64,000 nt of DNA, from positions 1,521,001-1,585,000 of the forward strand of contig NZ_JAZHRR010000001.1 of NCBI RefSeq assembly GCF_036924515.1, written 5' to 3'. Position numbers and translations under genes: made by a program. The stretch is from Bradyrhizobium sp. AZCC 1610 (GTDB lineage Bacteria; Pseudomonadota; Alphaproteobacteria; Rhizobiales; Xanthobacteraceae). Positions within the stretch are counted from its first letter, which is position 1. Each line of letters opens with the position of its first letter. This document shows positions 20,449-42,398 of this stretch, one piece after another. Under the pieces are notes generated by a model. It saw only the letters and a program-made list of their open reading frames with translations. It ran no database searches and was not told the origin of the DNA.

Positions 20449-23400
20449 CTATTCCTGCCGGATTCGGCCGACCGCCGCCTGGATATCGGTCCAGGCAGGC
20501 TTGTCCGGGGCGAATTGCCGGCGGAGATAGGCGGCCAGCTCCACGACCTGGCCGTCGGTCAGGCTGTCCTTGAAGGCCGGCATATAGCCGAGATCGGTTG
20601 CGGCCGGCTTCGCGATGCCGTGCAGGATGAGCTGGATCAGATTGTCAGGCACGGCGCTGTGCAGATTGCTGTTCAGCGCCAGCGACGGCCGGCTGCCGAA
20701 CAGCGGCGCGCCGCCGACCTCGTGACACACCGCGCAGGCGCCCTGGTAGATCCGGGCGCCGATGCTGGACGCTGCCGACGCGCGCGTGCCGGTCGAGGAT
20801 TCCAGTCTCGCGGCGAGCGCTTGCTGCGCCGCGCTATCCATGGAGGTCTCGTTGAACGAAGCGAGATAGACCGCCATGGCGCGAATGTCGGAATCCGGAA
20901 GTGCTGTGAGCTCCTTCACCACGGGCGCCATCGGCCCGGCGGCGACGCCGTGAAGGCGGGATTCGCCGGTCCGCAAATACGCATACAGTTCGTTCTCACT
21001 CCAGGGGATGGGTGCCTGCGACAACGATGTCAGCGCTGGCGCTTCCCAGCCTTCCGCAAATCCGCCGGCGAGATAGGTGTTCGCCTGTTCCGCGCCAAGC
21101 GTGTTGCGCGGCGAATGGCAGGCGCTGCAATGGCCGAGGCCTTCCACCAGATAGGCGCCGCGATTCCACACCTCGGACTTGGTCGGGTCCGCCTGGAATA
21201 CGGCCGGCTTGTGGAACAGCGCATTCCATCCCGCCATCAACGGGCGCAGATTGAACGGAAACGCGAGAGTGTTGGTCGGCGTCGCCGCGTGCACCGGCGA
21301 CTGCGCCATCAGATAGGCATAGAGCGCGTGCATGTCGGCGTCGGTCGTCTTGGCGAAGTGTGGATAGGGAAACACCGGGTAGAGATGCCGGCCGTCGCGA
21401 TGAATGCCCTCGCGCATCGCGCGCTCGAAGGCGGGATAGGACCATGCGCCGATTCCGGTTTCGACATCGGGCGTGATGTTGGTCGCGTAGATCATGCCGA
21501 ACGGCGTTTGCAGCGGACGGCCGCCGGCGTTGAGGATACCGTTCGCCGAGGTATGGCAGACCGCGCAGTCTCCGAGCGCGGCGAGCTGCTGGCCGCGGGC
21601 GATGGTCGCAGCCGAATAGATCGATGCATCCGGCCGCGCGATCGGCGCGATGGCACGCCACGGCAGCACCGCGGCACCGATGCCGATCGCGGCGGCGCAG
21701 AGTGCCGCGGCGGTTGCAAATGCACCGCGCCGTCCGGCGAATGGATTTCGCCACCGGTCGAGATCGGGCTGCGGTGCCGGCGTCGGCAATGCCTCCGGTG
21801 CCGCTTGTGCCTCGCCTTGCAGTCCCCGCAAGATGCGCTCCGGCGTGAACGGCAGTTCGCGAAAGCGCACTCCGGTCGCATCATAGATCGCGTTGGCGAT
21901 GGCGGCGGCACTGGGGACAGAGGCGGACTCGCCGACACCGAGCGGCGGCTGATCCTGCCGCGGCAGCATCAAGACATCGATCTCGGGCACCTCGGGGAAT
22001 TTGATGATGGGGTAGGCGCCCCATTCCCGCGCCGTCACGGATGTGCGGTCGAACGAAACTTCCTCCATCAGCGCGCGGCTGGTCGACTGGATGACGTTGC
22101 CGTGGATCTGGTGGCGGACGCCGTCCGGGTTGATCATCAGGCCGGAATCCTGCCCGGCAACGACGCGCGTCACGCTGACGTCGCCGGTCGCCTTGTTAAC
22201 GGCGACATCGGCGATCCAGGCCGACCACGCCGCGCCATAGCCCGGAAACTTGCTGTGGACATAGAGCGCATAGGCAAAGCCGCGGCCGCGCACGATGTCG
22301 CCCTCGCCTTCCGGCTCCTGCCGCACCGGTCGCGGCTTCCAGCCGGCGCGCTCGGCCACCGCGTTGACGAGATCGACCGCGCGGGAGTCTTTTAAATGGC
22401 GCAGGCGATACTCGATCGGGTCGACGCCGGCTTCATCAGCGCATTCGTCGATCCAGGATTCATGCGCAAAGGTGTTCGGCAGCGCCGAGACGCCGCGCAG
22501 CCAGGAGGCGCGCACGATCGGCGGCATGTCGTTCGCCACCACGCGCAGATTCTCGTAATCGTAAGGTGGGATCGCGGTGCGGTCGCCCATCTCGAAGATG
22601 GCGGGTGTGTGCGGGATCGTGCCGGTCAGCAGCAGCGCCAGCGTCGGGGCGCCGTTCGAAGGATAGCGTGTGGCAAAATCATAACCGGCGACGCTGCCGT
22701 CGGCATTCAATCCGCCGTTGACGTCCATCAACTGCGCGGTGCCCTTGGGTTCCCACGCATGTTCCTGCTCGCGCGTCAGCTGCACGCGAACGGGCCGGCC
22801 GACGGCCCGCGACAGCAACACCGCGTCGGCGGAAACGTCATCGGCGCAATTGCGGCCGTAGCAGCCGGCGGCCTCCATCCGGATCACCTCGATCTCGGCT
22901 TCGCGGCGATGGATCAGCCGTGCCAGCTCGGTGCGCAGATGGTGCGGATTCTGCGTGCCGGACCAGACCCTGGTCTGATCCTCCTGATAGTCGGCGACCG
23001 CGCAGGATGGGCCGATCGAGGCGTGCATCTGATAAGGCCAGACATAGGTTCGCGGCATCGGCTTCGCGGCACCGGCAATCGCCGCATCGACGTCACCCTT
23101 GTCGATCAGCGTTCGCGGCGTCGACGGATTGGCGCGCAGCGCGGTCTCGATGTCCTTCAGGTCGGGCAGCGTCGGCACCGGCTTCCAGCTCACCTTGAGC
23201 TGTGCCGCGGCCTTAATTGCGTTCTCCTCGCGCTCGGCGACGACGCCGACGAAATCGCCGATCCTGACGACAGCGACAAGTCCGGGGATGTTGCGCACCG
23301 AGGCTTCATCCACCGCGATCAGGCTGTTGCCGATAAAGTCGCCGACATCGACGCCTGCATAGGGCGGGCGGACGACGCGGCCGTGGAGCATGCCGGGCAG

Positions 23401-23997
23401 ACGCATGTCGTGAACGTAGACCAGCTCGCCCGTTGCCTTCGCTGGCAGATCGATGCGCGGAACGGATTGACCGACGATGCTGTAGGCGCTGGCGGGCTTG
23501 ACCGGAACGTCGTCCGCCAGTTCAAGGCGGATAGTCTCGCCCGCGATCAGTTCGCCATAGCTGATGCTGCGATTGTCCTGGCCGCGGATCAGGCCGTCTT
23601 CAATGATGAGATCCTCGATCGGGAGTTCCAGTCGCGCCGCGGCACGCGCGACCAGAAACTGCCGCGCCTGCGCCGCAGCCTTGCGCAGCGGCACGGCGGT
23701 GATCTGGATCGTTTCGCTCGCAATCGTCGCGCCCTGATTGGGCACGAGAGAAGTATCGCCCAGCACGACGACGACGCGGGCAAAGGATACGTCGAGTTCC
23801 TCCGCGACGATCTGACCGAGCGCGGTGCGAATGCCGGTGCCGAGATCGACATGGCCGTTATAGGCGGTGACCGATCCGTCGGCGGTGATCCTGATAAAGG
23901 TCTCGAACTTGACGGCCTCGACGGGTGAGGCGGGACGGACAACGGACAGCGTGCCTTGCAGCCGGTTGCGATCCTCGGTCGTGTCGGCAGCCGTCAT
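20449..23997 (-). CDS. nicB: Nicotinate-dehydrogenase-like molybdopterin subunit fused to tri-heme cytochrome c
   Basis: 1182 residues. The first roughly 740 are a xanthine-dehydrogenase-family molybdopterin domain (GHVDLGTGIRTALGQIVAEEL, AAGCYGRNCADD, and GVGESASVPSAAAIANA with the catalytic Glu). After one hydrophobic segment (about 760-780), three c-type heme motifs follow: CAVCH (about 809), CSACH (about 957) and CAVCH (about 1087). Size and order match NicB of Pseudomonas putida nicotinate dehydrogenase, which hydroxylates nicotinate to 6-hydroxynicotinate and passes electrons to the respiratory chain. ATG 23997 overlaps the nicA-like stop (TGATG), so both are translated together. A related aldehyde/isoquinoline oxidoreductase is possible, but the adjoining 6-hydroxynicotinate genes favour nicotinate. 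Confidence 0.82.
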   Translation of the reverse strand: MTAADTTEDRNRLQGTLSVVRPASPVEAVKFETFIRITADGSVTAYNGHVDLGTGIRTALGQIVAEELDVSFARVVVVLGDTSLVPNQGATIASETIQITAVPLRKAAAQARQFLVARAAARLELPIEDLIIEDGLIRGQDNRSISYGELIAGETIRLELADDVPVKPASAYSIVGQSVPRIDLPAKATGELVYVHDMRLPGMLHGRVVRPPYAGVDVGDFIGNSLIAVDEASVRNIPGLVAVVRIGDFVGVVAEREENAIKAAAQLKVSWKPVPTLPDLKDIETALRANPSTPRTLIDKGDVDAAIAGAAKPMPRTYVWPYQMHASIGPSCAVADYQEDQTRVWSGTQNPHHLRTELARLIHRREAEIEVIRMEAAGCYGRNCADDVSADAVLLSRAVGRPVRVQLTREQEHAWEPKGTAQLMDVNGGLNADGSVAGYDFATRYPSNGAPTLALLLTGTIPHTPAIFEMGDRTAIPPYDYENLRVVANDMPPIVRASWLRGVSALPNTFAHESWIDECADEAGVDPIEYRLRHLKDSRAVDLVNAVAERAGWKPRPVRQEPEGEGDIVRGRGFAYALYVHSKFPGYGAAWSAWIADVAVNKATGDVSVTRVVAGQDSGLMINPDGVRHQIHGNVIQSTSRALMEEVSFDRTSVTAREWGAYPIIKFPEVPEIDVLMLPRQDQPPLGVGESASVPSAAAIANAIYDATGVRFRELPFTPERILRGLQGEAQAAPEALPTPAPQPDLDRWRNPFAGRRGAFATAAALCAAAIGIGAAVLPWRAIAPIARPDASIYSAATIARGQQLAALGDCAVCHTSANGILNAGGRPLQTPFGMIYATNITPDVETGIGAWSYPAFERAMREGIHRDGRHLYPVFPYPHFAKTTDADMHALYAYLMAQSPVHAATPTNTLAFPFNLRPLMAGWNALFHKPAVFQADPTKSEVWNRGAYLVEGLGHCSACHSPRNTLGAEQANTYLAGGFAEGWEAPALTSLSQAPIPWSENELYAYLRTGESRLHGVAAGPMAPVVKELTALPDSDIRAMAVYLASFNETSMDSAAQQALAARLESSTGTRASAASSIGARIYQGACAVCHEVGGAPLFGSRPSLALNSNLHSAVPDNLIQLILHGIAKPAATDLGYMPAFKDSLTDGQVVELAAYLRRQFAPDKPAWTDIQAAVGRIRQE

Positions 23998-24479
23998 CAC
24001 GTCCGGGCCTCAACGGCATGGCCTGCGGCGCGCATTGCAGCGCGCATGATCTCGATATGCGCGCCGCAGCGGCAGAGATGATGGCGCAGCGCTTCCAGCA
24101 CCTCGTCCTCCGACGGGTGAGGGGAGCGCAGCAACAACGCCTTGGTCGCGATGATCATGCCGTTGAGGCAATAGCCGCATTGTGCGGCTTGCTCGCTAAT
24201 GAAGGCTTGCTGCACCGGATCGGGATGTTCGCGCGTGCCGAGACCTTCGAGCGTCACGATGTCGCGCCTGGTGCAGCCCTCGATCGGGATCACGCAGGAC
24301 CGCGCGGCGACGCCGTCGATCAGCACCGCGCAGGCGCCGCATTCGCCGAGACCGCAGCCGTATTTCGGTCCGTTCAAGGCGAGGTCGTTGCGCAGCACAT
24401 AGAGCAATGCCGTGTCGGGCGCGGCGTCGACATTGTGAGTCTTGCCGTTGACGGTCAGGCGCATCATGCTCTGCGTCAT
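23997..24479 (-). CDS. nicA: 2Fe-2S subunit of nicotinate-dehydrogenase-like enzyme
   Basis: 160 residues with the two [2Fe-2S] centres of molybdenum hydroxylases: the plant-type motif CGLGECGAC...C (about residues 40-62) and the C-terminal motif CGYCLNGM with CRCGAH. It relays electrons from the molybdenum subunit to the hemes. Start ATG 24479 follows GGGGAG closely. A much longer open frame upstream is not supported, because it runs antisense through the 6-hydroxynicotinate reductase gene. A sigma70-like promoter with an operator in its spacer lies at 24532-24559. Confidence 0.9.
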   Translation of the reverse strand: MTQSMMRLTVNGKTHNVDAAPDTALLYVLRNDLALNGPKYGCGLGECGACAVLIDGVAARSCVIPIEGCTRRDIVTLEGLGTREHPDPVQQAFISEQAAQCGYCLNGMIIATKALLLRSPHPSEDEVLEALRHHLCRCGAHIEIMRAAMRAAGHAVEART

Positions 24480-24531: not shown

Positions 24532-24559
24532 AAGATACCGTTTGTGTACAAACGTGCAA
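24532..24559 (-). promoter_or_regulatory. Promoter of nicAB-like genes with operator in the spacer
   Basis: Reading leftwards: -35 TTGCAC (24559-24554), a 16-bp spacer, -10 TATCTT (24537-24532). The spacer plus the last -35 base is the palindrome CGTTTGTGTACAAACG (24539-24554; exact arms around a GT centre). The same half-site pattern recurs at 24692-24705 and 41553-41585, so a shared repressor is likely. Confidence 0.65.
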
Positions 24560-24661: not shown

Positions 24662-24705
24662 TTGACAGGGTTTCGGTCCGCGCGCAACATCGTTCGTGTA
24701 CGAAC
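24662..24705 (+). promoter_or_regulatory. Promoter and operator of the 6-hydroxynicotinate reductase operon
   Basis: TTGACA (24662-24667), 17 bases, then a weak -10 CAACAT (24685-24690). GTTCGTGTACGAAC (24692-24705) follows immediately: arms GTTCGT/ACGAAC around GT, matching the nicA-side palindrome. A protein bound there would block initiation. Confidence 0.65.
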
Positions 24706-24734: not shown

Positions 24735-26216
24735 ATGATCGGCGCCTTCTCGACTGCAGGCTTGTTCATGACTGATGCGACGTCCGCCGACGGTGGCGAC
24801 AAGATCCGCTGCGATGCCTGTCCGGTGATGTGCTACATCAAGCCGGGCGCGGCGGGCGCGTGCGATCGCTATGCCAATCACAACGGCGAACTGGTGCGCG
24901 TCGATCCGCATATCGTGCTGGAGCAGACGGTATCGCATGGCGGACGGCTGGTGCCGTTTCAGGCCGGCGGCGACTGGGACGGCAAGCTCGTCCACGAACC
25001 AAGCGTGTTCGTTACCGCGATCGGCGCGGGAACAACTTATCCCGACTACAAGCCCGCGCCCTTCATCGTGTCCTCGGAAGTCGATGGCGTCGACATGGTC
25101 ACGGTCGTGACCGAAGGCATTTTCAGCTATTGCGGCGTCAAGGTGAAGATCGACACCGACCGCTACCTCGGCCCTGAGACGGCAACCGTCCGCGCGGAAG
25201 GCGAGGCGATCGGCCATGTGACGACGAGCGAATACGGCTCGCAGATGCTGTCGCTTGGCGGCGTGCATCACCTGACCGGGGGCTCCAAGAAGGAAGGCCG
25301 CGTCACCTGCGACGCGCTGATGGACCTCTCCAACTGCAAGCGGGTGGAACTGACGATCGATGGTGGCGCCACGGTGGTGGTGCAGGCCGGCTATCCACCG
25401 ATCGTCAACGGCGTTGCGGAAGAGCGCATGCGGGTGGGCTGCGGCTCCGCGACGATCGGCATGTTCGCCAAGCAATGGCACGGCAAGGTCGATGAAGTTG
25501 TGGTCGTGGACGACCACATTACCGGCGTGCTCTCGGAACATCAGGCCGGCAAGCTGCTTGATATTCCCGATACCGGGATCAAGATGAAAGGACGGCGCTC
25601 GACGCCCGGCCGTTACTTCCAGGTCGCCGAGCCCGGCACCGGGTGGGGCGGCACCAATATTTCCGATCCGCTGTCGGTGCTGGGACCGTTCAATCCGAAG
25701 GAGGCGCGGCCTGGGCTCACCATGCTGATGGTCTCGACCACCGGCGAGCATGCGGCCTATTACGAGCTTGATGAAGCGCTGCGGCCGATCGAAAAGCAGA
25801 TGCCGCCCGATCTCCAGTTCTCGGTCGAGCGTATTCAGGAGAACTGCGAACCGGCGCTGTGCACGGTGCTGTTCATGGGCGGCGCCGGCGGTTCGCTGCG
25901 CGCCGGCGTGACCGACAATCCGGTGCGGCTGACGCGCTCGGTCAAGGATGCGCTGACGCGGGTCACCAGCGGCGGCGCGCCCGTCTATGTCTGGCCAGGC
26001 GGCGGTATCACCTTCATGGTCGACGTCACGCAGATGCCGGCCGGCGCGTTCGGCTATGTGCCGACACCGGCGCTGGTGGCGCCGATCGAGTTCACGCTGC
26101 GGCTTTCCGATTATGCCGCGCTCGGCGGCCACATGGATCACGTGCGTCCGCTGGCGTCGTTGCGGGAAAACAGCGAATTTCGCCCGATGCCCTACATGAC
26201 GGGACGGCGCGCATGA
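24735..26216 (+). CDS. hnr: 6-hydroxynicotinate reductase
   Basis: About 493 residues, recognised as the Hnr family. In Eubacterium barkeri this enzyme reduces 6-hydroxynicotinate to 1,4,5,6-tetrahydro-6-oxonicotinate with reduced ferredoxin and carries covalent flavin and several Fe-S clusters. The N-terminus here has the Fe-S motif CDACPVMCYIKPGAAGACDRY (Cys spacing C-x2-C-x3-C). Further conserved-looking Cys occur in SYCGVK, VTCDAL, SNCKRV, VGCGSA and ENCEPALC. ATG 24735 is chosen; ATG 24768 would remove 11 residues and is possible. It heads a plus-strand operon through to the MarR gene. The ATGA overlap with UPF0280 shows coupling. Confidence 0.85.
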   Translation: MIGAFSTAGLFMTDATSADGGDKIRCDACPVMCYIKPGAAGACDRYANHNGELVRVDPHIVLEQTVSHGGRLVPFQAGGDWDGKLVHEPSVFVTAIGAGTTYPDYKPAPFIVSSEVDGVDMVTVVTEGIFSYCGVKVKIDTDRYLGPETATVRAEGEAIGHVTTSEYGSQMLSLGGVHHLTGGSKKEGRVTCDALMDLSNCKRVELTIDGGATVVVQAGYPPIVNGVAEERMRVGCGSATIGMFAKQWHGKVDEVVVVDDHITGVLSEHQAGKLLDIPDTGIKMKGRRSTPGRYFQVAEPGTGWGGTNISDPLSVLGPFNPKEARPGLTMLMVSTTGEHAAYYELDEALRPIEKQMPPDLQFSVERIQENCEPALCTVLFMGGAGGSLRAGVTDNPVRLTRSVKDALTRVTSGGAPVYVWPGGGITFMVDVTQMPAGAFGYVPTPALVAPIEFTLRLSDYAALGGHMDHVRPLASLRENSEFRPMPYMTGRRA

Positions 26217-27121
26217 AACGGTTTCCGCAGATCGCGCTTCTTCCGGACGGCAAGCGGCTGCATTTGCAGGACGGTCCGATCGACCTGATCATTGGGGCGA
26301 ATGGCAAGGATGCAAATGTGCGTGCCGCCTATGAGGCGGCGGCGCGCCGCTTCACCGGCCTGCTCGATGAACTCTGTGCGGAACTGGTGGAGTTGCGCCG
26401 GACCGCCGATCCGGCCCGGTGCAATTTGAAAGGCGTCGTCGCACGCCGCATGCACGCGGCAGTCGCTCCGTTTGCGGCTGAACATTTCATTACGCCGATG
26501 GCGGCGGTGGCGGGTAGCGTCGCGGAAGAGATCCTTGGCGCGATGCTCCGTGCGGCGAGGCTCGATCGCGCCTATGTCAATAATGGCGGCGATATCGCGC
26601 TGCATCTGACCGGAAGGGAGCAGTTCACCGTCGGGCTGATCGATCGGCCGGACTATCATGGCGTGATGCAAACCATCAGCATCGAAGCCTGCGATCCGGC
26701 ACGGGGTATCGCGACCAGCGGGCGGCACGGCCGCAGCTTTTCGCTTGGGATCGCCGACGCCGTTACCGTGCTGGCGAAAACGGCATCGCAGGCCGATGCC
26801 GCCGCGACCGTCATCGCCAATGCCGTCGATCTGCCCGGTCATCCCGCCATTATCCGCTGCCCGGCGAATGAGTTGCAGCCCGACAGCGACCTCGGCACGC
26901 GTCTTGTCACCCGTGACGTCGGCGCGCTCCAGGAGAGCGAGATCGACGACGCGCTGAGGGCAGGGGTGAGCCGGGCACAGCAATTGCTTGCGGCGGGATT
27001 GATCGAAGGTGCGGCCTTGCGTCTACTAGGCGAGACGGCCGTGGTGGGTGCAACAGGGATCAAGGCAGGCGCGTTGGCGGCGTCTCATGAAGGCGCACCA
27101 AAAAGAGTAGCGCATGTTTGA
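26213..27121 (+). CDS. UPF0280 (ApbE-like superfamily) protein
   Basis: 302 residues. AAVAGSVAEEIL, AYVNNGGDIALHL and GIATSGRHGRSFSLGIADAVTVLA match UPF0280, a family with the ApbE (FMN-transferase) fold. ATG 26213 overlaps the stop of the reductase gene (ATGA), so the two are translated together. E. barkeri 6-hydroxynicotinate reductase has covalently bound flavin, so a reasonable inference is that this protein attaches it. An enzymatic role for UPF0280 is not established. Other members occur beside Fe-S proteins and methanogenesis genes. Confidence 0.85.
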   Translation: MKRFPQIALLPDGKRLHLQDGPIDLIIGANGKDANVRAAYEAAARRFTGLLDELCAELVELRRTADPARCNLKGVVARRMHAAVAPFAAEHFITPMAAVAGSVAEEILGAMLRAARLDRAYVNNGGDIALHLTGREQFTVGLIDRPDYHGVMQTISIEACDPARGIATSGRHGRSFSLGIADAVTVLAKTASQADAAATVIANAVDLPGHPAIIRCPANELQPDSDLGTRLVTRDVGALQESEIDDALRAGVSRAQQLLAAGLIEGAALRLLGETAVVGATGIKAGALAASHEGAPKRVAHV

Positions 27122-27139
27122 TCGGGAGCGAGGCTGACA

Positions 27140-27724
27140 ATGAGCGCGATCATTCGCAAGATCGTCACGGTGGTCGAGGAAACTCATCTCGAGATGGGGC
27201 AAAAAGTTGCGCCGCCGACGCGGCGCGCAGCGGCGATCGCCGTGATTGAGAATCCCTTTGCAGGCCGGTACGTCGAGGACCTTTCGCCTTTGATCGAAAT
27301 CGGCGAGGAACTCGGCGATCTGCTTTCGAAGAAGGCAGTCGCGGCACTCGGGATCGACGGCGCCAAGGCGCACAGCTACGGCAAGGCGGCGGCGGTCGGT
27401 GAAAACGGCGAACTGGAACACGCGGCAGCGATCCTGCATCCGAAGATGGGCGCGCCGGTCCGCAAGGTCCTGGGCAAGGGCGCGGCGCTGATTCCGTCGT
27501 CTAAGAAGCGCAGCGGCCCGGGGACGACGCTGGATATCCCGCTCGGCCACAAGGACGCGGCATTCGTACGCAGCCATTTCGACGGGATGGAAGTGCAGAT
27601 CAACGATGCGCCGCGCGCCAATGAGATCATGGTCGCGGTGGCGGTCACCGACAGCGGCAGGCCATTGCCGCGCGTCGGGGGATTGACGGTTTCGGAAGTC
27701 AAAGGCGAAGACGGTTTGCGATAG
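27140..27724 (+). CDS. DUF1185 / 'amino acid synthesis' family protein
   Basis: 194 residues matching the AA_synth (PF06684, DUF1185) family: RKIVTVVEETHLEMG at the start, AVIENPFAGRYVEDLSPLIEIGEELG, and the C-terminal GGLTVSEVKGEDGLR. The biochemical role of the family is unknown despite its name. It starts 18 bases after the UPF0280 stop and 23 bases before the binding protein, clearly inside the operon. It may act on the pathway intermediates, for example on the unstable 2-formylglutarate branch, but nothing in the sequence proves it. Confidence 0.8.
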   Translation: MSAIIRKIVTVVEETHLEMGQKVAPPTRRAAAIAVIENPFAGRYVEDLSPLIEIGEELGDLLSKKAVAALGIDGAKAHSYGKAAAVGENGELEHAAAILHPKMGAPVRKVLGKGAALIPSSKKRSGPGTTLDIPLGHKDAAFVRSHFDGMEVQINDAPRANEIMVAVAVTDSGRPLPRVGGLTVSEVKGEDGLR

Positions 27725-27747
27725 TTGCTTCAACATTGGAGGTAGGG

Positions 27748-28950
27748 ATGCGACGGAGACATTTGCTGGGAGCTGGATTGGCGATCGCTGTTGCGGGCAT
27801 GACGAATACCGCCATGGCGCAAAGCGAGATCAAGATCGGCGAGATCAACAGCTATTCGCTGTTGCCCGCCTTCACAGAGCCCTATCGCAAGGGCTGGCAG
27901 CTTGCGGTGGAGGAAGTCAACGCCGCGGGCGGCATCAACGGCAAGAAACTCGTCGTCATCTCCAAGGACGACGGCGGCAAACCGGCGGACGCGCAGACCG
28001 CGGCCAACGAACTGGTGTCGAGCGAGAACGTGGCGATGCTGACCGGTACGTTCCTGTCCAACATCGGTCTGGCCGTCAGCGATTTCGCCAACCAGAAGAA
28101 AGTCTTCTTCCTGGCGGCAGAGCCACTGACCGACGCCATCACCTGGTCGAAGGGCAATCGCTACACCTTCCGCCTGCGTCCCTCCAACTACATGCAGGCG
28201 GCGATGCTGGTGGAGGAAGCCGCGAAGCTTCCGGCCAAGCGCTGGGCGACGATTGCGCCGAACTATGAATACGGCCAGTCGGCGGTCGCGGTGTTCAAGA
28301 AGCTGATGTCGGCTAAGCGTCCCGACATTCAGTGGGTCGACGAACAATGGCCGCCGCAGGGCAAGATCGACGCGGGTCCGGTGGTGCAGGCGGTTGCCGC
28401 GGCCAATCCCGAAGCGATCCTCAACGTCACCTTCGGAGCCGATCTCGTCAAGCTCGTGCGCGAAGGCAACACCCGCGGCCTGTTCAAGAACCGCGCGGTG
28501 GTCTCCTTCCTCACCGGCGAGCCGGAATATCTCGATCCGCTGAAGGACGAGACGCCGGAGGGCTGGATCGTCACGGGTTACCCCTGGTACGACATCAAGA
28601 CGCCGGACCATGACAAGTTCCTCAAAGCCTATCAGGCCAAGTACAACGACTATCCGCGCCTCGGCTCGATCGTCGGCTACCAGACCATCAAGGCCGCTGC
28701 GGCGATTCTTGCCAAAGCCAACTCGACGGATCCGGAGAAGCTGATCGCAGCGACCGAAGGCCTGTCGATGCCGTCGCCGTTCGGCGAGATCACGTTCCGC
28801 AAGATCGATCATCAGTCGACGCTCGGAGCCTATGTCGGCAAGACCGCGCTGAAGGACGGCAAGGGCGTGATGGTGAACTCGGTCTATCGCAAGGGCGCGG
28901 ACTATCTCCCGAGCGATGCGGAAGTCGAAAAGCTTCGTCCGAAGGACTGA
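27748..28950 (+). CDS. ABC substrate-binding protein, branched-chain amino acid (LivK) type
   Basis: 400 residues: a Tat-like/Sec signal (MRRRHLLGAGLAIAVAGMTNTAMAQ), then a type 1 periplasmic binding fold (IKIGEINSYSLLPAFTEPYRKGWQLAVEEVNAAGG at 27826-27935). Start at 27748 has a strong GGAGGTAGGG. The LivK fold is widely reused for aromatic acids and amides. Its place between nicotinate genes and matching membrane genes suggests uptake of nicotinate or a related pyridine. Confidence 0.9.
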   Translation: MRRRHLLGAGLAIAVAGMTNTAMAQSEIKIGEINSYSLLPAFTEPYRKGWQLAVEEVNAAGGINGKKLVVISKDDGGKPADAQTAANELVSSENVAMLTGTFLSNIGLAVSDFANQKKVFFLAAEPLTDAITWSKGNRYTFRLRPSNYMQAAMLVEEAAKLPAKRWATIAPNYEYGQSAVAVFKKLMSAKRPDIQWVDEQWPPQGKIDAGPVVQAVAAANPEAILNVTFGADLVKLVREGNTRGLFKNRAVVSFLTGEPEYLDPLKDETPEGWIVTGYPWYDIKTPDHDKFLKAYQAKYNDYPRLGSIVGYQTIKAAAAILAKANSTDPEKLIAATEGLSMPSPFGEITFRKIDHQSTLGAYVGKTALKDGKGVMVNSVYRKGADYLPSDAEVEKLRPKD

Positions 28951-28960
28951 TGCTTTCGCT

Positions 28961-29099: not shown

Positions 29100-29155
29100 C
29101 AAAGCAAGCCCAGCGCCGACCCAACGCGGCGCGACAATTCCAACCCGGACCGCTC

Positions 29156-31042
29156 ATGGCCTTTTACTTCGTTCAGTTCCTGACCGGTCTCGCCAGCGCG
29201 GCGTCGCTGTTTCTGGTCGCGTCGGGGCTGTCGATCATTTTCGGCGTGACGCGGATCGTGAATTTTGCCCATGGCGCGTTCTACATGCTCGGCGCCTATG
29301 TCGCGTTCACGCTGACCGAACGTTTCTCCGGCGCGCTCGGCTTCTGGGGCGGCATCGTCGTTGCGGCGTTGATCGTCGCCGTCGTCGGCGTGCTGGTCGA
29401 GATGGTGCTGCTGCGGCGGATCTACCATGCACCGGAATTGTTCCAGTTGCTCGCAACTTTCGGCCTGACCTTGATGGTCCAGGATATCGTGGTGCTGATC
29501 TGGGGTCCGGATGATCTGCTCGGCCGCCGCGCGCCCGGCTTCAGAGGCGCGGTCGATTTCTTCGGCCAGAACATCCCGAGCTACGATTTGTTCCTGATCG
29601 CGCTCAGTCCGGTCGTGCTCGGCGGGCTCTGGCTGCTGTTCCAGCGCACGCGCTGGGGCGTGCTGGTGCGCGCGGCGACGCAGGACCGCGACATGGTGGC
29701 GGCGCTGGGCGTCAATCAGAAATGGCTGTTCACCAGCGTGTTCGCACTCGGGGTCTTTCTCGCAGCCCTCGGCGGCGCGCTGCAGATCCCGCGCGATGCC
29801 GTGCATCATGCGCTCGACCTTCGTATCATCGTCGAAGTGTTCGTGGTCGTGGTGATCGGCGGGCTCGGCAGCATCATCGGTGCTTTCGTTGCCGCCGTGC
29901 TGGTTTCCGAACTCAACGCCTTCGGCATTCTCATCTTCCCGAAGATCTCCATCATCCTGGTGTTCCTGGTGATGGCGGTCGTGCTGATCGTGCGGCCATG
30001 GGGCCTGTTCGGCAAACCGGAAGCGGCCGCGCGCCGCACGCCGGGCCTGACCGTCACGCCGTGGCGGCGGCTGACATCAGGCGAACGGCTGATGTCGCTC
30101 GGCGCACTGGTCCTTGCGGCCATGCTGCCGCTGTTCGCCGGCAACTATGCGCTCACGGTTGGGTCGGAGATCGCAATCTACGTGATCTTCGCCGCCAGCC
30201 TGCATTTCCTGATGTCGGTCGGCGGGCTAGCCTCGTTCGGCCACGCCGCCTATTTCGGTCTTGGCGCTTATGGCGTCGCGTTCCTCGCCAAAGCGGCGGG
30301 ATTTCCGATGATCGTCTCGCTGCTGCTGGGGCCAATACTGGGCCTGCTTGGTGCTGCGGTATTCGGCTTCTTCGCCGTGCAACTCTCCGGCGTCTATTTC
30401 GCGATGCTGACGTTGGCCTTTGCGCAGATCGTCTGGTCGATCGCCTTCCAGTGGGTCGAGGTGACCGGCGGCGACAACGGCATTCTCGGCGTCTGGCCGG
30501 AGAAGTGGGCCGCGGGCCCATCTGCGTTCTACTGGCTGTCGCTCGGCATCGCCGCGCTCGTGGTCACCGTGCTGCGCGTGATCGTGTTCTCGCCATTTGG
30601 CTTCGCGTTGCGCGCGACGCGGGACTCGCCGCTGCGCAGCGAAGCGATCGGCATCGACGGCAAACGCGTGCAATGGACGGCCTTCGTCATATCAGGCACG
30701 GTCGCAGGGATTGGCGGCGCGCTGTTCGCCTATCTGAAAGGAAGCGTCTTCCCCGACAGCCTCGGCATCTCGCTGTCGGTGGATGCGCTGGTCATGGTGC
30801 TGCTCGGCGGCGTCGAGACGGTTTCCGGTGCTGTTATCGGCGCCATCGTCTTCAAGGCGGCCAGCATCTGGCTGGTCAGCCAGACCGATCTTTCCAAGCT
30901 GGTGCTGGGCGGCTTCATCGTGCTGATGGTGGTGGCTTTCCCCAAGGGCATCGTCGGCACGCTGGAGACGATCAGGAATCGCTGGCGATCCCCTGAGAAA
31001 AAATCCGCGCTTGCCACCTCCCGGATCGAGACCGCCGAATGA
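29156..31042 (+). CDS. ABC permease, LivH-LivM fusion
   Basis: 628 residues with two permease domains in one chain. Residues about 1-290 resemble LivH (SGLSIIFGVTRIVNFAHGAFYMLGAY; GGLGSIIGAFVAAVL). Residues about 315-610 resemble LivM (GGLASFGHAAYFGLGAYGVAFLAKA; GIDGKRVQWTAFVISG). The two halves are usually separate proteins. It would form the whole transmembrane pore. ATG 29156; its stop overlaps the next ATPase start (ATGA). Confidence 0.92.
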   Translation: MAFYFVQFLTGLASAASLFLVASGLSIIFGVTRIVNFAHGAFYMLGAYVAFTLTERFSGALGFWGGIVVAALIVAVVGVLVEMVLLRRIYHAPELFQLLATFGLTLMVQDIVVLIWGPDDLLGRRAPGFRGAVDFFGQNIPSYDLFLIALSPVVLGGLWLLFQRTRWGVLVRAATQDRDMVAALGVNQKWLFTSVFALGVFLAALGGALQIPRDAVHHALDLRIIVEVFVVVVIGGLGSIIGAFVAAVLVSELNAFGILIFPKISIILVFLVMAVVLIVRPWGLFGKPEAAARRTPGLTVTPWRRLTSGERLMSLGALVLAAMLPLFAGNYALTVGSEIAIYVIFAASLHFLMSVGGLASFGHAAYFGLGAYGVAFLAKAAGFPMIVSLLLGPILGLLGAAVFGFFAVQLSGVYFAMLTLAFAQIVWSIAFQWVEVTGGDNGILGVWPEKWAAGPSAFYWLSLGIAALVVTVLRVIVFSPFGFALRATRDSPLRSEAIGIDGKRVQWTAFVISGTVAGIGGALFAYLKGSVFPDSLGISLSVDALVMVLLGGVETVSGAVIGAIVFKAASIWLVSQTDLSKLVLGGFIVLMVVAFPKGIVGTLETIRNRWRSPEKKSALATSRIETAE

Positions 31043-31830
31043 GCATGGTCCCCACATTGCTGTCGGTTGAGGCCTTAAGCAAATCCTATGGCGGCGTCCA
31101 TGCCGTGCGCAGCGTGTCGTTCGAACTGCGCGCGGGCGAAATCCTGGCGCTGATCGGGCCCAACGGCGCCGGGAAAAGCACCTGTTTCGACATGCTCAAC
31201 GGCCAGAACATTCCGGACAGTGGCCGGATCACTCTGCTCGGCGAGGATACGGTCGGCCGGAAGCCGCGCGCGATCTGGCGGCTCGGCGTCGGCCGCACGT
31301 TCCAGATCACCGCGACGTTCCCGACCATGACCGTGCGCGAGAACGTGCAGGTCGCGCTGGTGTCGTATGGCAGGCAGTTGTTCAATCTCTGGGGCTCAAC
31401 CGCAAGTTACGCGCGCGACGAAGCCGGCCGGCTGCTCGATCTCGTCGGCATGGGCGCCTATGCCGGGCGTCCGTGCGGCGAACTCGCCTATGGCGACCTC
31501 AAGCGGCTGGAGCTTGCGATCGCGCTCGCCAACCAGCCCAAGCTATTACTGATGGACGAGCCGACTGCCGGCATGGCGCCGCGCGAGCGGATCGAACTGA
31601 TGCGGTTGACCGCGCGCATCGCCCGCGAGCAATCGATCGGCGTGCTCTTCACCGAGCACGACATGGATGTGGTGTTCGAACATGCCGACCGCATCCTGGT
31701 GCTCAACCGCGGCAGCCTGATCGCCGAAGGCTCGCCGGAGGAAGTTCGCGGCAATCCGCAGGTGCGCGCCATCTATCTCGGCGAGGGTCTGGTCTACGAC
31801 GCACGTCACCGCGAGGGAGCCGGCGCATGA
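31039..31830 (+). CDS. ABC ATPase, LivG type
   Basis: 263 residues. Walker A GPNGAGKST (about 38-46), the LivG-typical VGRTFQITATFPTMTVRENVQVAL, a divergent signature LAYGDLKRLELA in place of LSGGQ (normal for LivG), and Walker B LLLMDEPTAGMAP. The C-terminal YLGEGLVYD is also LivG-like. Four-base overlaps with both neighbours show a tightly coupled operon. Confidence 0.92.
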   Translation: MSMVPTLLSVEALSKSYGGVHAVRSVSFELRAGEILALIGPNGAGKSTCFDMLNGQNIPDSGRITLLGEDTVGRKPRAIWRLGVGRTFQITATFPTMTVRENVQVALVSYGRQLFNLWGSTASYARDEAGRLLDLVGMGAYAGRPCGELAYGDLKRLELAIALANQPKLLLMDEPTAGMAPRERIELMRLTARIAREQSIGVLFTEHDMDVVFEHADRILVLNRGSLIAEGSPEEVRGNPQVRAIYLGEGLVYDARHREGAGA

Positions 31831-32531
31831 AGCTGCAGGTCGCCGATCTCAACAGCTTTTACGGCCCGGCGCATATCCTGTTCGATATCGCGCTCGAAGT
31901 CGGCGAAGGCGAGGTGGTGGCGCTGCTCGGGCGTAACGGCGCCGGCAAGTCCACCACCTTCCGCTCCATCGTCGGTCTCGTCGAGAACCGCTCGGGACGG
32001 ATTGTCTTCGAGGGCAGGGACGTCTCGCGTGAGCCAACGCATGCGATCGTGCGTGGTGGGCTCGGCTACGTGCCGGAAGAGCGGCGCATCTTCACGGATC
32101 TGACGGTCGACGAAAATCTCGAAGTAGGGCGCCAGCCGAAGCGGTCGAACGCGCCGCAGTGGACGCGCGAGAAACTGTTCACGCTGTTTCCCAATCTCGG
32201 CGAAATGCGCAACCGTCCAGGCGGGCGGATGAGCGGCGGCGAGCAGCAAATGCTGACGATCGCGCGGACCCTGATGGGCAATCCGTCGCTGGTGCTGCTC
32301 GACGAGCCGTCGGAAGGGCTATCGCCGAAGATTGTCGAACAGATGGTCGAAGCCATCCTCGCGATGAAGCGAGAAGGCGTCAGCATCGTGGTCTCGGAGC
32401 AGAACCTGCATTTCGCGCGGCTGATCTCCGACCGCGCCTACATCATCGAGCGTGGCAAGATCTGCTTCGGCGGCACGATGGCGGAACTCGACGCGCGGCC
32501 GGACATCCGGGACGCGCATCTGTCGCTGTAG
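31827..32531 (+). CDS. ABC ATPase, LivF type
   Basis: 234 residues: LNSFYGPAHILFDIALEVGEGEVVALLGRNGAGKST (Walker A at about 36-44), GYVPEERRIFTDLTVDENL, MSGGEQQMLTIARTLM (signature), and LVLLDEPSEGLSP. The start ATG overlaps the LivG-type stop. With the LivG-type subunit it powers the LivHM-type pore. Confidence 0.92.
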   Translation: MKLQVADLNSFYGPAHILFDIALEVGEGEVVALLGRNGAGKSTTFRSIVGLVENRSGRIVFEGRDVSREPTHAIVRGGLGYVPEERRIFTDLTVDENLEVGRQPKRSNAPQWTREKLFTLFPNLGEMRNRPGGRMSGGEQQMLTIARTLMGNPSLVLLDEPSEGLSPKIVEQMVEAILAMKREGVSIVVSEQNLHFARLISDRAYIIERGKICFGGTMAELDARPDIRDAHLSL

Positions 32532-32557
32532 CCGGTGGCAAGGGAAGGGGCGGGAAA

Positions 32558-33013
32558 ATGGGAAGGAGCGTTTCGCCGAAACGAGCGGTCAAGCCCGCAC
32601 GGCCGTCCTACATCCTCGATGAGCAGATCGGTTTCATCCTGCGTCAGGTCTGGCAGCGCCACGCCACGATCTTCGCCCGCGAGATCGGTATCAATTTGAC
32701 GCCGACGCAGTGGGCGGCGCTTGCAAAACTGACCGAGACCGGGCCGTGCTCGCAGAACCTGCTGGGACGGCTGACGGCGATGGACGTCGCGACCATCAAG
32801 GGCGTGATCGACCGCCTCACCGCGCGCGGGCTGACCGAGACCAGCCCGGACCCCGAGGACGGCCGCCGACTGCTCGTGAGCCTCACGCGCGCCGGCCAGC
32901 AACTGGCCGAGAAAGCCGCGCCGAACGCGCTCGCGATCAGCCGCGAGACGCTGGCGCCGCTGGATGCCAAGGAGCGCGAAACACTGATCGCGCTACTCGA
33001 CAAGTTGCGTTGA
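32558..33013 (+). CDS. MarR-family regulator (candidate nicotinate-pathway repressor)
   Basis: 151 residues with a winged helix: LTPTQWAALAKLTETGPCSQNLLGRLTAMDVATIKGVIDRL spans helix 2 to the recognition helix (positions about 32695-32820), and SPDPEDGRRLLVSLTRAG is the wing. MarR dimers bind short palindromes and release DNA when an aromatic acid binds. In Pseudomonas putida the MarR-type NicR answers to 6-hydroxynicotinate, and this protein has the same general layout. As last gene of the operon it is the best candidate to bind the three palindrome loci. Start ATG 32558 follows GGGAAGGGG. Confidence 0.87.
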   Translation: MGRSVSPKRAVKPARPSYILDEQIGFILRQVWQRHATIFAREIGINLTPTQWAALAKLTETGPCSQNLLGRLTAMDVATIKGVIDRLTARGLTETSPDPEDGRRLLVSLTRAGQQLAEKAAPNALAISRETLAPLDAKERETLIALLDKLR

Positions 33014-35102: not shown

Positions 35103-35507
35103 CGTACTGCCTCCCTGTTTGCCTCGATGTACAGCAACACGGCTCAGCGGCATGCAGCAGCAAGAAATCACCCGGGCGCGTTGAGTTCCTCTTTGAGAGT
35201 GCCGCCAGCCGGGGTTTGCCCATCGACCATACACCGCAATGCGGCAGGCGAAAATAACGATGGTGCTACCGGTCCGCCGCGCGACGCAAAGGGTGCGGAA
35301 TCCTGCTGATCGCCAGTATGGCTGGCGGCGGCGAACGTGTCGGCGCAGCTTCGATCATCGCCGTTCCGCTTGCGACCATTTGCAGGACGACGCCCGCGTC
35401 GTCCGCGCTCCTTCCCGTGCAATCGATCGAGCGTTGCTTGATCTGCGGCGTCAGGTGGGCGCACCTCTAAAACCATTGTTACTGTTGACTTCATCTAAAA
35501 CTATTTG
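35103..35507. other. Intergenic region without recognised gene
   Basis: Between the divergent SBP56 and TetR genes. Open frames exist on both strands (for instance about 35168-35494 minus) but show no domain, no convincing ribosome-binding site and biased shadow-like composition. The right end is AT-rich (35460-35521) and contains the TetR promoter region. Confidence 0.5.
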
Positions 35508-35520
35508 ATAACACTGTTAT
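35508..35520. promoter_or_regulatory. Candidate TetR operator
   Basis: ATAACACTGTTAT is a perfect palindrome with a one-base centre, ending one base before the TetR start codon, within AT-rich DNA. Related half-sites (TTGTTACTGTTG) lie at 35477-35488. Autoregulation is inferred. Confidence 0.5.
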
Positions 35521-35521
35521 T

Positions 35522-36184: not shown

Positions 36185-36197
36185 GGGAGTAAGCGAG

Positions 36198-37010: not shown

Positions 37011-37034
37011 TCCTGCTTTCCGAGGGAGCAACAC

Positions 37035-37892: not shown

Positions 37893-37933
37893 TTCGAAGC
37901 GCAAGGATTCAAGTCGACGGAGAGAGTTCCGCT

Positions 37934-38359
37934 CTATTTGACCGTGATGGTAATTTTCTGCGAGACCACTGGAGGGTTGAACGGATAGTGGCCGGCGTCT
38001 CCCAGCACGAGCTGAAGCGTGTGCTTGCCGGGTGGAAGTTCGATCCGGGCTTCGGTTTGACCCGCCCCAAAATGAAGATGTGATTTGTCCTGCGGGATCT
38101 CTTCGTTCGGATTGAGCGGCTCATTCACATCGATCAGAAGATGATGATGGCCGCTGTTCGGGTAGTTGTCGCCCGCGTGGGTTACGCCCATGTTGCGCAG
38201 ACCAAACCGGCACCAAAACCCACCTTTGATGACGGCGCCGTTCTGCGGCCACACGAAATAGAGAAGGGCATCCTTCGGGGCGGGCTTTCCTTGAGCATAC
38301 GCGGCGAACGGCAGGCAAGTGAGCGCTGCTGACAGAGCGATCCACTGCATAAACTTCAT
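37934..38359 (-). CDS. DUF4399 periplasmic protein
   Basis: 141 residues: signal peptide (MKFMQWIALSAALTCLPFAAYAQG) then a small beta-rich domain with FVWPQNGAVIKGGFWCRFGLRNMGV, SGHHHLLIDV and THTLQLVLGDAGHYPF-like segments, which identify DUF4399. Several His (HHHLLI) might bind a metal. Function unknown. It is 19 bases downstream of the cyclase-FGE gene and shares its strand, so they may be co-expressed. Confidence 0.85.
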   Translation of the reverse strand: MKFMQWIALSAALTCLPFAAYAQGKPAPKDALLYFVWPQNGAVIKGGFWCRFGLRNMGVTHAGDNYPNSGHHHLLIDVNEPLNPNEEIPQDKSHLHFGAGQTEARIELPPGKHTLQLVLGDAGHYPFNPPVVSQKITITVK

Positions 38360-38378
38360 GACTGTCTCTCAACGCTCC

Positions 38379-40114: not shown

Positions 40115-40279
40115 CTACCGGTATGGATCTTCGTCGATCGGGTACTGTGGCACGCTTACCGCATCGAACGAGCAGTCGGCCCGGTTCCTGAAATCGACGA
40201 GCCCAAGGATCAGCACCGTGGCAACAAAGCCGGCCACCGCGCCGGTAACGTCGCCGGCAATTGGCAGCGAGTTCTTCAT
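40115..40279 (-). CDS. Small predicted membrane protein (54 residues) coupled to the enamidase gene
   Basis: An ATG at 40279-40277 overlaps the enamidase stop as TGATG, and the frame runs 54 codons to TAG (40117-40115). The product starts MKNSLPIAGDVTGAV, continues with one hydrophobic helix (GAVAGFVATVLILGLVDF, about residues 13-30) and ends in an acidic tail, IDEDPYR. The overlap, sound codon usage and helix suggest a real small gene. I recognise no family. It may anchor or assist the enamidase or an electron-transfer partner, which is inference. Confidence 0.6.
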   Translation of the reverse strand: MKNSLPIAGDVTGAVAGFVATVLILGLVDFRNRADCSFDAVSVPQYPIDEDPYR

Positions 40280-41479
40280 CAATGCCCGATGATGATCTCC
40301 GGCACTTTCCCCGCCGGCGGCGTGTTGCGGCTGCGCTGGGTGCGGACGATGCCGTCGATGATGGTCATGCCGATGCCGGGAAGGTCGCCGAGCTGCACGC
40401 TTTCCAAAATGTTCTTGCCGGGCGAGTGCTGGGCCTTGTCCATCAGCACGAAATCGGCGGAGCGGCCGACTTCAATTAGCCCGCAGTCGAGCTCGCGCAT
40501 GCGGGCGGTGTTGCCGGTTGCCAGGCAGAAGGCGAGTTCGGTGGGCAGATCGCCCAGCGAGGACAGCATCGAGACCATGCGTAAAATGCCGAGCGGCTGC
40601 ACGCCGGAGCCAGCCGGCGCGTCGGTGCCGAGGATGACGCGGTTGAGGTCGCCCATTTCGCGCGCGATGCGCAGCGTGAACAGCGCCGAGCGCTCGTTGC
40701 CGTTGTGCACCAGTTCCAGCCCGCGCTTGCAGCCTTCACAGATACAGCGGATCTGGTCGTCGGGCAGGGCGGTGTGGCCGCCATTGATGTGACCGATCAC
40801 GTCGGTGTCGGCTTCCAGCACCACGTCCTTGTCGATCAGGCCGGAGCCGGGGATCGAAGGACCGCCGGTGTGGATCGTGCTCTGGATGCCGTATTTGCGC
40901 GCCCAGCCGACCATCTTGCGCGCGGTAGGGCCGTCCTTGACGCCGCCGAGGCCGACTTCGCCGAGCAGCTTGACGCCGGCCGCGGCCAACTTCCTTGAAA
41001 TCGTCCTCGACCATTTCGCATTCGATCACGGGTGCGCCGGCATGCACCTTCACCCCGCCCGGACGCAGCGTCCAGAATGCGCGTTGCGCGAAGATCGCCA
41101 TCGCCTTCAGGCCGACGACGTCGCGGGGTCGGCCGGGCATGTGAACTTCGCCTGCGGAGATCATGGTGGTGACGCCGCCGTGGAGATAGCTGTCGATCCA
41201 GTTGGTCTGGTTCTGCCGCGGCGTCCAGTCGCCGGCGACGGGATGGACGTGGCTGTCGATCAGGCCAGGGGCGACCGTGGTGCCGTTGGCATCGACAACG
41301 GTGGTGGCGCCCTCGGTGTTGACGTCCTTGAATCGTCCGATCGCTGTGATCTTGCCGTTCTCGGCTACGATCGTATCGCCGTCCAGGATCGGCTTCTCCA
41401 GCGCCCCCGACAGCAGCAGCCCGATATTGCGGATCACCAGCTTGCTGGGACCGGTCGCCTGGGGTGCATCGTGGGCCAT
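40279..41479 (-). pseudogene. ena: Enamidase (amidohydrolase superfamily), interrupted by a single-base frameshift
   Basis: The two parts together give about 399 residues resembling E. barkeri enamidase, which opens 1,4,5,6-tetrahydro-6-oxonicotinate to 2-formylglutarate and ammonia using metal ions. Part 1 (41479 to about 40991) has VIRNIGLLLSGALEKPILDGDTIV, the metal motif GLIDSHVHPVAGDWTPRQ and GGVTTMISAGEVHMPGRP. Part 2 (40989-40279) has AAAGVKLLGEVGLGGVKDG, TIHTGGPSIPGSG, GHINGGHTALP, ILGTDAPAGSG and SRNTPPAG. Removing one base near 40990 joins them as KELAAAGVK. It is either a recent inactivating mutation or a sequencing error. The start is supported by AAAAGGAAAA upstream of ATG 41479. 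Confidence 0.82.
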
Positions 41480-41525: not shown

Positions 41526-41596
41526 TTGACGATCGGATCAAGCTGGATTATTCATTTGTATACGAATGATCGTATACGAATGATTGAACTGGTCAA
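41526..41596. promoter_or_regulatory. Bidirectional enamidase/fpr promoter with two operators
   Basis: Two palindromes sit 14 bp apart: CATTTGTATACGAATG (41553-41568) and ATCGTATACGAA (41569-41580), sharing the pattern TTYGT-N2-ACRAA with the nicA and hnr operators. Rightward: -35 TTGACG (41526-41531), 17 bp, -10 TATTCA (41549-41554). Leftward: -35 TTGACC (41596-41591), 16 bp, -10 TACGAT (41574-41569). Both -10 boxes touch the operators. Confidence 0.65.
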
Positions 41597-41624
41597 TCCG
41601 GCTTGCCGGTCAGGGAATGGTGCG

Positions 41625-42398
41625 ATGAGCAACTTCAACCAGGAAAGCGTCTTGAGCGTCCATCACTGGACCGACACGCTGTTCAGCTTCACCACCACGC
41701 GCGATCCCTCGTTCCGTTTCCGCAACGGCGAGTTCACCATGATCGGGCTGAAGGTCGGCGAGAAGCCGCTGCTCCGCGCCTACTCGGTCGCCAGCGCCAA
41801 TTATGAGGACCGGCTCGAATTCTTCTCGATTAAGGTGCCGGACGGGCCGCTGACCTCACGCCTCCAGCACTTGAAGCAGGGCGATGAGATCATCGTCAGC
41901 CGCAAGGCGACCGGAACGCTGGTCATCGACAACCTCGAAGACGGCCGCAACCTCTATCTGATCGGCACCGGCACGGGCTTGGCCCCGTTCCTGAGCGTGA
42001 TCAAGGATCCCGAGACCTATGAGCGGTTCGAGAAGGTGGTGCTGCTGCACGGCTGCCGCCGCGTCGCCGAGCTCGCCTATGGCGAGATGATCACCGAAAA
42101 GCTGCCGAACGACGAACTGATCGGCGAATATGTCCGCAACCAGTTGATCTACTACCCCACCGTGACGCGCGATCCGTTCCGCAACCGCGGCCGTATCACC
42201 GACCTGATCAACTCTGGCAAACTATTCGCTGATATCGGGCTGGCCTCGCTCGACCCCGCCCACGACCGCGTCATGATCTGCGGCAGCCCCGCACTGGTGA
42301 CGGACACGCGTGCGCTGTTGACGGGCAAAGGCTTCGTCGAAGGCAATCACGGCGAGGCGGCGCAGTTCGTGGTCGAGAAGGCGTTCGCGGAGCGGTAA
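41625..42398 (+). CDS. fpr: Ferredoxin--NADP+ reductase
   Basis: 257 residues of the bacterial Fpr type. RAYSVASANYEDRLEFFSIKV binds FAD (RxYS motif at about residues 50-53), GPLTSRLQHLKQGDEI follows, and IGTGTGLAPFLSVI plus MICGSPALVTD form the NADP domain. The C-terminal EKAFAER is the FAD-stacking tail. It moves electrons between NADPH and ferredoxin. Divergent from the enamidase and under the same operator pair, it probably supplies reduced ferredoxin to the 6-hydroxynicotinate reductase. Start ATG 41625 follows GGGAATGG. Confidence 0.92.
   Translation: MSNFNQESVLSVHHWTDTLFSFTTTRDPSFRFRNGEFTMIGLKVGEKPLLRAYSVASANYEDRLEFFSIKVPDGPLTSRLQHLKQGDEIIVSRKATGTLVIDNLEDGRNLYLIGTGTGLAPFLSVIKDPETYERFEKVVLLHGCRRVAELAYGEMITEKLPNDELIGEYVRNQLIYYPTVTRDPFRNRGRITDLINSGKLFADIGLASLDPAHDRVMICGSPALVTDTRALLTGKGFVEGNHGEAAQFVVEKAFAER

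Follow-up and report, generated by a model that had tools for sequence, protein, structure and literature searches.

Introduction

The reductive route of nicotinate breakdown has been described for Azorhizobium caulinodans in passages of PMC3511419, which cite Kitts 1989 and 1992 and present the same gene cluster in Bradyrhizobium japonicum USDA110, Rhodopseudomonas palustris HaA2, A. caulinodans ORS571 and Bradyrhizobiaceae strain SG-6C. According to these passages, strain SG-6C degrades and grows on nicotinate with 6-hydroxynicotinate as a transient, and its 6-hydroxynicotinate reductase (Hnr) is 42% identical to that of Eubacterium barkeri (PMC3511419). In Bordetella, the repressor of the nicotinate genes is the MarR-type protein BpsR, for which passages of PMC6837509 give the structures 6pcp and 6pco and the contacts to 6-hydroxynicotinate (Tyr15, His23, Arg26 and His32). 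Here we analysed a stretch of 64,000 bases, called the window (bases 1521001-1585000 of the single-contig, 7.75 Mb genome of Bradyrhizobium sp. AZCC 1610), and compared its hnr gene and the genes around it with these systems.

We read this locus, with a probability of roughly 85%, as a gene cluster for nicotinate catabolism of the kind described for Azorhizobium and Bradyrhizobium. The gene cluster is real and well conserved. Because it has been published for relatives, the pathway reading is right in substance and not new, and the outcome is a known pathway with useful new leads. Two conserved operon genes without assigned function, UPF0280 and DUF1185, are what is added to the known pathway, and the tight pairing of UPF0280 with Hnr, together with an exchange of ring-opening enzymes, is the unexpected and testable part.

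Results

Gene content, the operator with its conservation, co-occurrence and the broken enamidase frame were computed; all enzymatic steps, the regulator-operator pairing and the ligand are what we infer. The genes for nicotinate 6-hydroxylase (nicA and nicB) and for 6-hydroxynicotinate reductase were found to be present by homology. A previous, sequence-only reading of this DNA had placed nicAB-like genes at 20.4-24.5 kb, and this was borne out by domains, heme motifs and the Fe-S cysteine pattern, the last judged by eye for nicA, without a family search. The nicB product of 1183 aa carries the CxxCH heme motif at three places. The three-heme dehydrogenase, which the sequence-only reading proposed as a replacement for the clostridial selenium enzyme, is of the known NicAB type, as in Pseudomonas putida.

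Hnr gave a single match in this genome and was found in 192 of the 195 genomes of its genus sample. An alignment of 15 Hnr sequences showed 8 invariant cysteines, with CDACPVxC...GACDRY in the N-terminal part. Identity to the 80 loci listed was 72-97%, with Bradyrhizobium proteins as the nearest named relatives (97% for B. algeriense); many of the relatives listed are named '6-hydroxynicotinate reductase' by their source, and others are 'hypothetical protein' or nameless. On the plus strand hnr is followed by the genes for UPF0280, DUF1185, a binding protein, a fused permease, two ATPases and marR (24735-33013), and both gene families and named relatives agreed with the previously described Hnr operon with importer and MarR regulator at 24.7-33.0 kb. 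The pncB gene lies about 70 bp downstream of nicB, directly 3' of it on the same strand, so nicotinate salvage and catabolism may be co-transcribed. The pncB-nicB neighbourhood was kept in many, not all, of the Bradyrhizobium loci compared.

The palindrome TTYGTRYACRAA had four matches in the 7.75 Mb genome, and three of them lay between cluster genes (24541, 24693 and 41555). The binomial P for at least three of four matches falling in this window was about 2e-6. Among 29 relatives, both nicA-hnr sites were exact in 28 and the remaining one keeps the nicA-side site. In all 30 ena-fpr gaps compared, our own included, one or more sites with no more than one mismatch were present. The relatives' loci were the best matches from larger samples, so this conservation is partly descent. 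The fourth match lay upstream, at a distance of about 50 bp, of a gene of nicotinamidase type, which scored 193 bits with NCBIfam PRK11609 (cut-off 174) and whose product has an N-terminus that resembles a twin-arginine signal when read by eye. These results supported more than chance placement, and the shared regulon that had been suggested for the window held up, both by the position of its sites and by their conservation at nicA-hnr and ena-fpr. A shared DNA switch for this cluster is thus newly defined here. It defines a small regulon that includes the nicotinamidase-type gene and joins vitamin salvage and catabolism. Another candidate motif, GTATACGAATGA with 3 mismatches, was rejected, as 20 matches were found versus 20.73 expected, which is no excess.

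Among solved structures, the MarR protein was nearest to 2nnn (E 3.7e-46) and then to the BpsR structures 6pcp (E 2.8e-24) and 6pco (E 5e-24). At the BpsR contact positions it has Y18, F26, R29 and H35, so that three of the four contacts are kept; Y-F-R-H occurs in 55 of 63 related MarR proteins and Y-F-R-A in 1. Since the Tyr, Arg and His contacts are kept, the ligand is probably 6-hydroxynicotinate or a close relative of it, bound in a pocket not identical to that of BpsR. We would pair this regulator with the palindrome because it shares the operon.

The occurrence of UPF0280 with Hnr was examined in a class sample of 289 genomes and a phylum sample of 221, some genomes being common to both. 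As a result, Hnr was found in 44 of the 289 class-sample genomes, and strong matches to the UPF0280 model NF003322 were found in the same 44; four further genomes had weak matches of 19.7 to 29.5 bits. NF003322 scored above its curated cut-off in 42 of the 44; G258 and G281, which did not reach it, had the match split over contigs. A single genome (G425) had the two genes on different contigs, and in the remaining 43 they shared a contig at a distance of no more than about 210 bp. In the phylum sample, 18 of the 221 genomes had Hnr, and NF003322 was found in these same 18. The hypergeometric p for co-occurrence was 4e-53, a value that ignores relatedness. UPF0280 was also present in 96 of the 99 loci fetched around Hnr, the exceptions being L188, L207 and L193, of which L193 ends soon after hnr. 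A fused Hnr-UPF0280 protein (P0031) was tried as proof of linkage and not used; it was taken for an artefact because its Hnr part ends unlike the usual C-terminus, as after a frameshift.

In 20 of 20 UPF0280 sequences, N-x-G-G-D, A-T-S-G and A-D-x-x-A-T were invariant. When the UPF0280 profile was compared with that of Escherichia coli ApbE, the three stretches aligned in order (E 0.01, hhalign probability 4.1), versus E 0.42 and 0.61 in two unrelated control comparisons. The ApbE core stretches read off the E. coli ApbE alignment (G-G, [ST]-S-G and A-D-x-x-T) are present in UPF0280, with weak statistics. The only solved UPF0280 relative at E <0.001 was 2o34 (E 6.5e-12), a hypothetical protein that presumably has an ApbE-like fold. 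Alhapel 2006 is said to have reported a covalent flavin on the E. barkeri Hnr. The presence of UPF0280 in the same genomes as Hnr, together with its ApbE-like motifs, suggests a factor for this flavin, and we propose UPF0280 as a flavin-transfer or maturation factor for Hnr. Such a genome-by-genome match gives UPF0280 a concrete, testable function. A literature search for UPF0280 found no paper, which is weak evidence of absence, as subscription journals were mostly outside the search.

For DUF1185, the model PF06684 scored above its cut-off in 39 of 44 Hnr genomes versus 17 of 245 others. There are two kinds of this protein, DUF1185-A, adjoining UPF0280 in many loci, and DUF1185-B, the kind in this window. 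A search with a relative's piece as query gave enamidase homologues (Ena) in 20 of the 44 Hnr genomes, and in 18 of these the identity was at least 70%. Fifteen of the 24 Hnr genomes without enamidase were picked for locus fetching, and the results showed a hydantoinase A gene (Hyu) in 10 of the 15 loci, 7 of which also had hydantoinase B; these calls were Pfam-checked for four A and one B. All ten hydantoinase-A genomes were without an enamidase match genome-wide. Outside the Bradyrhizobium-Afipia block, 43 loci of at least 17 kb comprised 18 with Ena, 12 with Hyu, none with both and 13 with neither; 18 of the 43 had been fetched for their Ena status or as a counterpart, so that these shares are not frequencies. 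All 18 Ena loci had DUF1185-B, as did 2 of the 12 with Hyu and 6 of the 13 with neither. Of the loci of at least 17 kb, the 25 that had not been chosen (L184-L226) comprised 15 with Ena, 2 with Hyu, none with both and 8 with neither. The exclusion p of 0.0004 was set aside as biased, because the 15 Ena-less genomes had been chosen for fetching.

In a tree of Hnr with 48 chosen rows, the best one obtained had Ena and Hyu changing places at least five times, and the well-supported branches alone forced three changes for either label versus the rest. An independent-pairs test of DUF1185-B with Ena found only 3 pairs on well-supported branches and was underpowered (sign test, median p 0.25). The hydroxylase also varied over the 43 loci, being of a different type with a fused Mo/Fe-S subunit in 29 and NicB in 7; in the one locus checked, that of Roseovarius (L226), a flavin adenine dinucleotide (FAD) subunit accompanied the fused hydroxylase, and the importer was of the TRAP type. 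Clusters of Hnr, UPF0280, DUF1185 and enamidase with a different hydroxylase were also seen in metagenome-assembled genomes titled Acidobacteriota (L198, L203, L204 and L208).

These results showed that the DUF1185-B copy goes with the enamidase and that other clusters have a hydantoinase in place of the enamidase. We propose DUF1185-B as a partner of the enamidase step, and the exchange predicts a second way of opening the reduced pyridine ring. A literature search pairing hydantoinase with 6-hydroxynicotin- found no paper, and as it too left most subscription journals aside, this is weak evidence of absence. According to passages of PMC2954203, PF06684 owes its name 'amino acid synthesis' to structure and to the branched-chain amino acid transporters encoded beside it. 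The transporter here more likely imports the pyridine substrate, so this name may mislead.

An enamidase gene divergent from fpr had been noted at 40.1-42.4 kb. Both genes are there, but ena is not one open frame, which the previous reading missed. In aligned DNA, ena had one extra base near 40988-40991 relative to 29 of 29 relatives. Of 98 genomes of the genus, 95 matched its C-terminal piece, with up to 98% protein identity to relatives, and the open frame was at least 400 aa in 90 of the 95 genomes with a match versus 248 aa here; the other four short frames were all in drafts of 370 to 1000 contigs. When the window DNA was compared with the relatives G019 (52.2 kb aligned) and G054 (45.6 kb aligned), the extra base was the only isolated, uncompensated gap against both inside any window gene. 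Other non-triplet gaps were compensated, at gene ends, in diverged stretches or against one relative only, such as the single-base gap in nicB at 22320 against G054. The ena frame is broken in this genome; the gene is present in the assembly, and not intact.

The locus had been called a dispersed regulon. In this genome marR and ena are indeed about 7 kb apart, with other genes filling the gap, but ena lay at most 2346 bp (within 2.4 kb) from marR in 26 of 37 Bradyrhizobium/Afipia-type loci (L147-L183), and dispersal was rejected as a feature of the cluster. Of the other 11 loci, L147-L150 show 3.1-3.2 kb past marR without ena, and the remaining seven either lack marR or stop shortly beyond it. 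The arrangement looks like a single cluster interrupted in this clade by other genes rather than like three dispersed loci. All features are collected in Table 1.

The genes between marR and ena (33702-39965) encode an SBP56 selenium-binding protein, a TetR protein, two crotonases and an adenylate-cyclase/FGE-sulfatase domain fusion. Beside fpr (42418-45734) there are genes for a Sox-type cytochrome, SoxY and flavocytochrome c sulfide dehydrogenase. At 46096-48441 the minus strand encodes another molybdopterin hydroxylase subunit, which scored under every NCBIfam cut-off listed, and an IS110-type transposase gene was seen at 10059-11306.

Table 1 Genes and operator sites of the nicotinate cluster (positions in the window)
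Feature	Position	Strand	Evidence
pncB, nicotinate phosphoribosyltransferase (NAD salvage)	19075..20379	-	NCBIfam PRK05321 508.7 bits vs cut-off 379; Pfam NAPRTase
nicB-like, molybdopterin subunit fused to three-heme cytochrome c domain	20449..24000	-	Pfam MoCoBD_1/2, Cytochrom_C, Cytochrome_CBB3
nicA-like [2Fe-2S] subunit	23997..24479	-	open frame; CGLGECGAC, CGYC and CRC stretches read by eye
operator palindrome TTTGTGTACAAA, nicA side	24541..24552	.	exact in 29/29 relatives
operator palindrome TTCGTGTACGAA, hnr side	24693..24704	.	exact in 28/29 relatives
hnr, 6-hydroxynicotinate reductase homologue	24735..26216	+	named relatives; 15-sequence alignment
UPF0280-family protein (NF003322), ApbE-like motifs	26213..27121	+	423.3 bits vs cut-off 290
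DUF1185 (PF06684) protein, B type	27140..27724	+	Pfam E 5.4e-75; solved relative 2qtp E 5e-87
ABC importer periplasmic binding protein	27736..28950	+	Pfam Peripla_BP_6
ABC importer fused double permease	29156..31042	+	two BPD_transp_2 stretches
ABC importer ATPase, LivG type	31039..31830	+	family matches
ABC importer second ATPase, LivF position	31827..32531	+	Pfam ABC_tran
MarR-family regulator related to BpsR	32558..33013	+	structure relatives; 3/4 6-hydroxynicotinate contacts kept
ena, enamidase homologue (amidohydrolase), frame broken	~40279..41478	-	divergent from fpr
operator palindrome TTTGTATACGAA, ena-fpr	41555..41566	.	genome pattern match
second operator copy ATCGTATACGAA beside ena-fpr palindrome, one mismatch	41569..41580	.	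pattern match
fpr-like ferredoxin-NADP reductase	~41625..42398	+	NCBIfam PRK10926 156 bits, under its cut-off 390; Pfam

Discussion

The reductive route proposed in the sequence-only reading remains the best reading of Hnr, NicAB, enamidase, importer, regulator and operator, although it was already published and the enamidase is frameshifted here. By homology, NicAB would oxidise nicotinate to 6-hydroxynicotinate and pass the electrons to its hemes, and Hnr would reduce the ring to 1,4,5,6-tetrahydro-6-oxonicotinate (THON), perhaps with Fpr supplying electrons. Enamidase would then open THON to 2-formylglutarate and ammonium, towards glutarate. A probable role of UPF0280 is the maturation of Hnr, for instance by attachment of the flavin, and DUF1185-B may act beside the enamidase step. 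The nicA/hnr and ena/fpr promoters and the nicotinamidase-type gene are probably repressed via one palindrome by the BpsR-like MarR protein, which would be released by 6-hydroxynicotinate or a near relative.

Taken together, these points allow a broader and more tentative reading, to which we give a little less than an even chance. UPF0280 would be a dedicated cytosolic ApbE-like enzyme that puts a covalent flavin on Hnr at a non-canonical site, Hnr and UPF0280 would form a conserved core, and DUF1185 would be linked to ring cleavage instead of 'amino acid synthesis'. The partners of this core would be interchangeable, namely NicAB or a FAD/Mo-FeS hydroxylase, an ABC or a TRAP importer, and enamidase with DUF1185-B or the ATP-dependent hydantoinase HyuAB.

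Several results weigh against our interpretation. The reversed-pattern control also gave three genome matches, so the count of operator matches is no excess and only their placement is. When a looser pattern of 14 bases was allowed two mismatches, it matched 120 and 112 times versus 169 and 173 for the reversed control, and as this is under the control we claim no further regulon members. Among 30 nicotinamidase-type gene loci, the best of 98 genomes, a site with at most one mismatch at about the same position was found in only 12, our own included, with a chance expectation of about 1 over all 30 as scaled from the shuffle mean. The BpsR His23 position is Phe here and in 56 of the 63 related MarR proteins, and the enamidase is frameshifted in this genome. 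Against an exclusive link of UPF0280 to Hnr, NF003322 had sub-cut-off matches in two methanogens among 14 control genomes, in which Hnr was not searched. The H-V-I-D-P stretch of E. coli ApbE, where we take the catalytic His to lie, is without a counterpart in UPF0280. Passages of PMC12052999 give this residue as His257 in Vibrio cholerae ApbE and the ApbE target motif as D-x-x-[ST]-G-A-[ST], and this motif was found in 0 of 15 Hnr sequences.

The missing H-V-I-D-P stretch and target motif would also suit an alternative in which UPF0280 does not transfer flavin but partners Hnr structurally or in electron transfer; its chances we put a little below even. The three stretches invariant in the UPF0280 sequences, and their order as in E. 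coli ApbE (a weak similarity), speak against this alternative.

It is nearly as probable as not that the pathway is interrupted in this strain, with a real ena frameshift, in which case THON would accumulate or be opened by another hydrolase. The extra base against all relatives aligned points that way, and the lack of a second isolated gap common to both relatives makes a generally error-rich sequence unlikely. On the other hand, the C-terminal piece is still highly similar to relatives, the ena-fpr operator is intact and the remaining pathway genes in the window are open, and a single-base sequencing or assembly error would look the same as a recent loss. If real, the break in the enamidase gene should show as a visible defect of the strain.

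It is very improbable that the cluster serves another N-heterocycle, with Hnr here not acting on 6-hydroxynicotinate: Hnr-UPF0280 modules pair with different Mo hydroxylases and ring openers, so that substrates could vary, and no solved Hnr relative was found by sequence (none at E 1 with a single sequence, and one chance-level match at E 0.41 in a profile search), but the adjacency of nicA/nicB and pncB, the nicotinamidase-type gene with its operator, the BpsR-like regulator and the SG-6C nicotinate data in passages of PMC3511419 speak for nicotinate.

Compared with known systems, UPF0280 resembles the ApbE flavin transferase in having N-x-G-G-D, A-T-S-G and A-D-x-x-A-T in the same order, and differs in that it is without H-V-I-D-P and not filed as ApbE, while Hnr is without the canonical target motif. 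The regulator shares with BpsR the MarR family and the Tyr, Arg and His contacts to 6-hydroxynicotinate, whereas it has Phe for His23 and the genes here belong to the reductive route. Hnr and enamidase are common to this locus and the nicotinate fermentation of Eubacterium barkeri, where the hydroxylase is a selenium enzyme in place of the heme-bearing NicAB, and the later steps here are expected via glutarate, versus 2-methyleneglutarate in E. barkeri. The SG-6C/USDA110-type clusters, as given in passages of PMC3511419, are nicotinate clusters of the same kind, from which this one differs in its distance of about 7 kb between marR and ena and in its frameshifted ena; the operator, the nicotinamidase-type gene and the UPF0280 linkage, absent from those passages, were found here.

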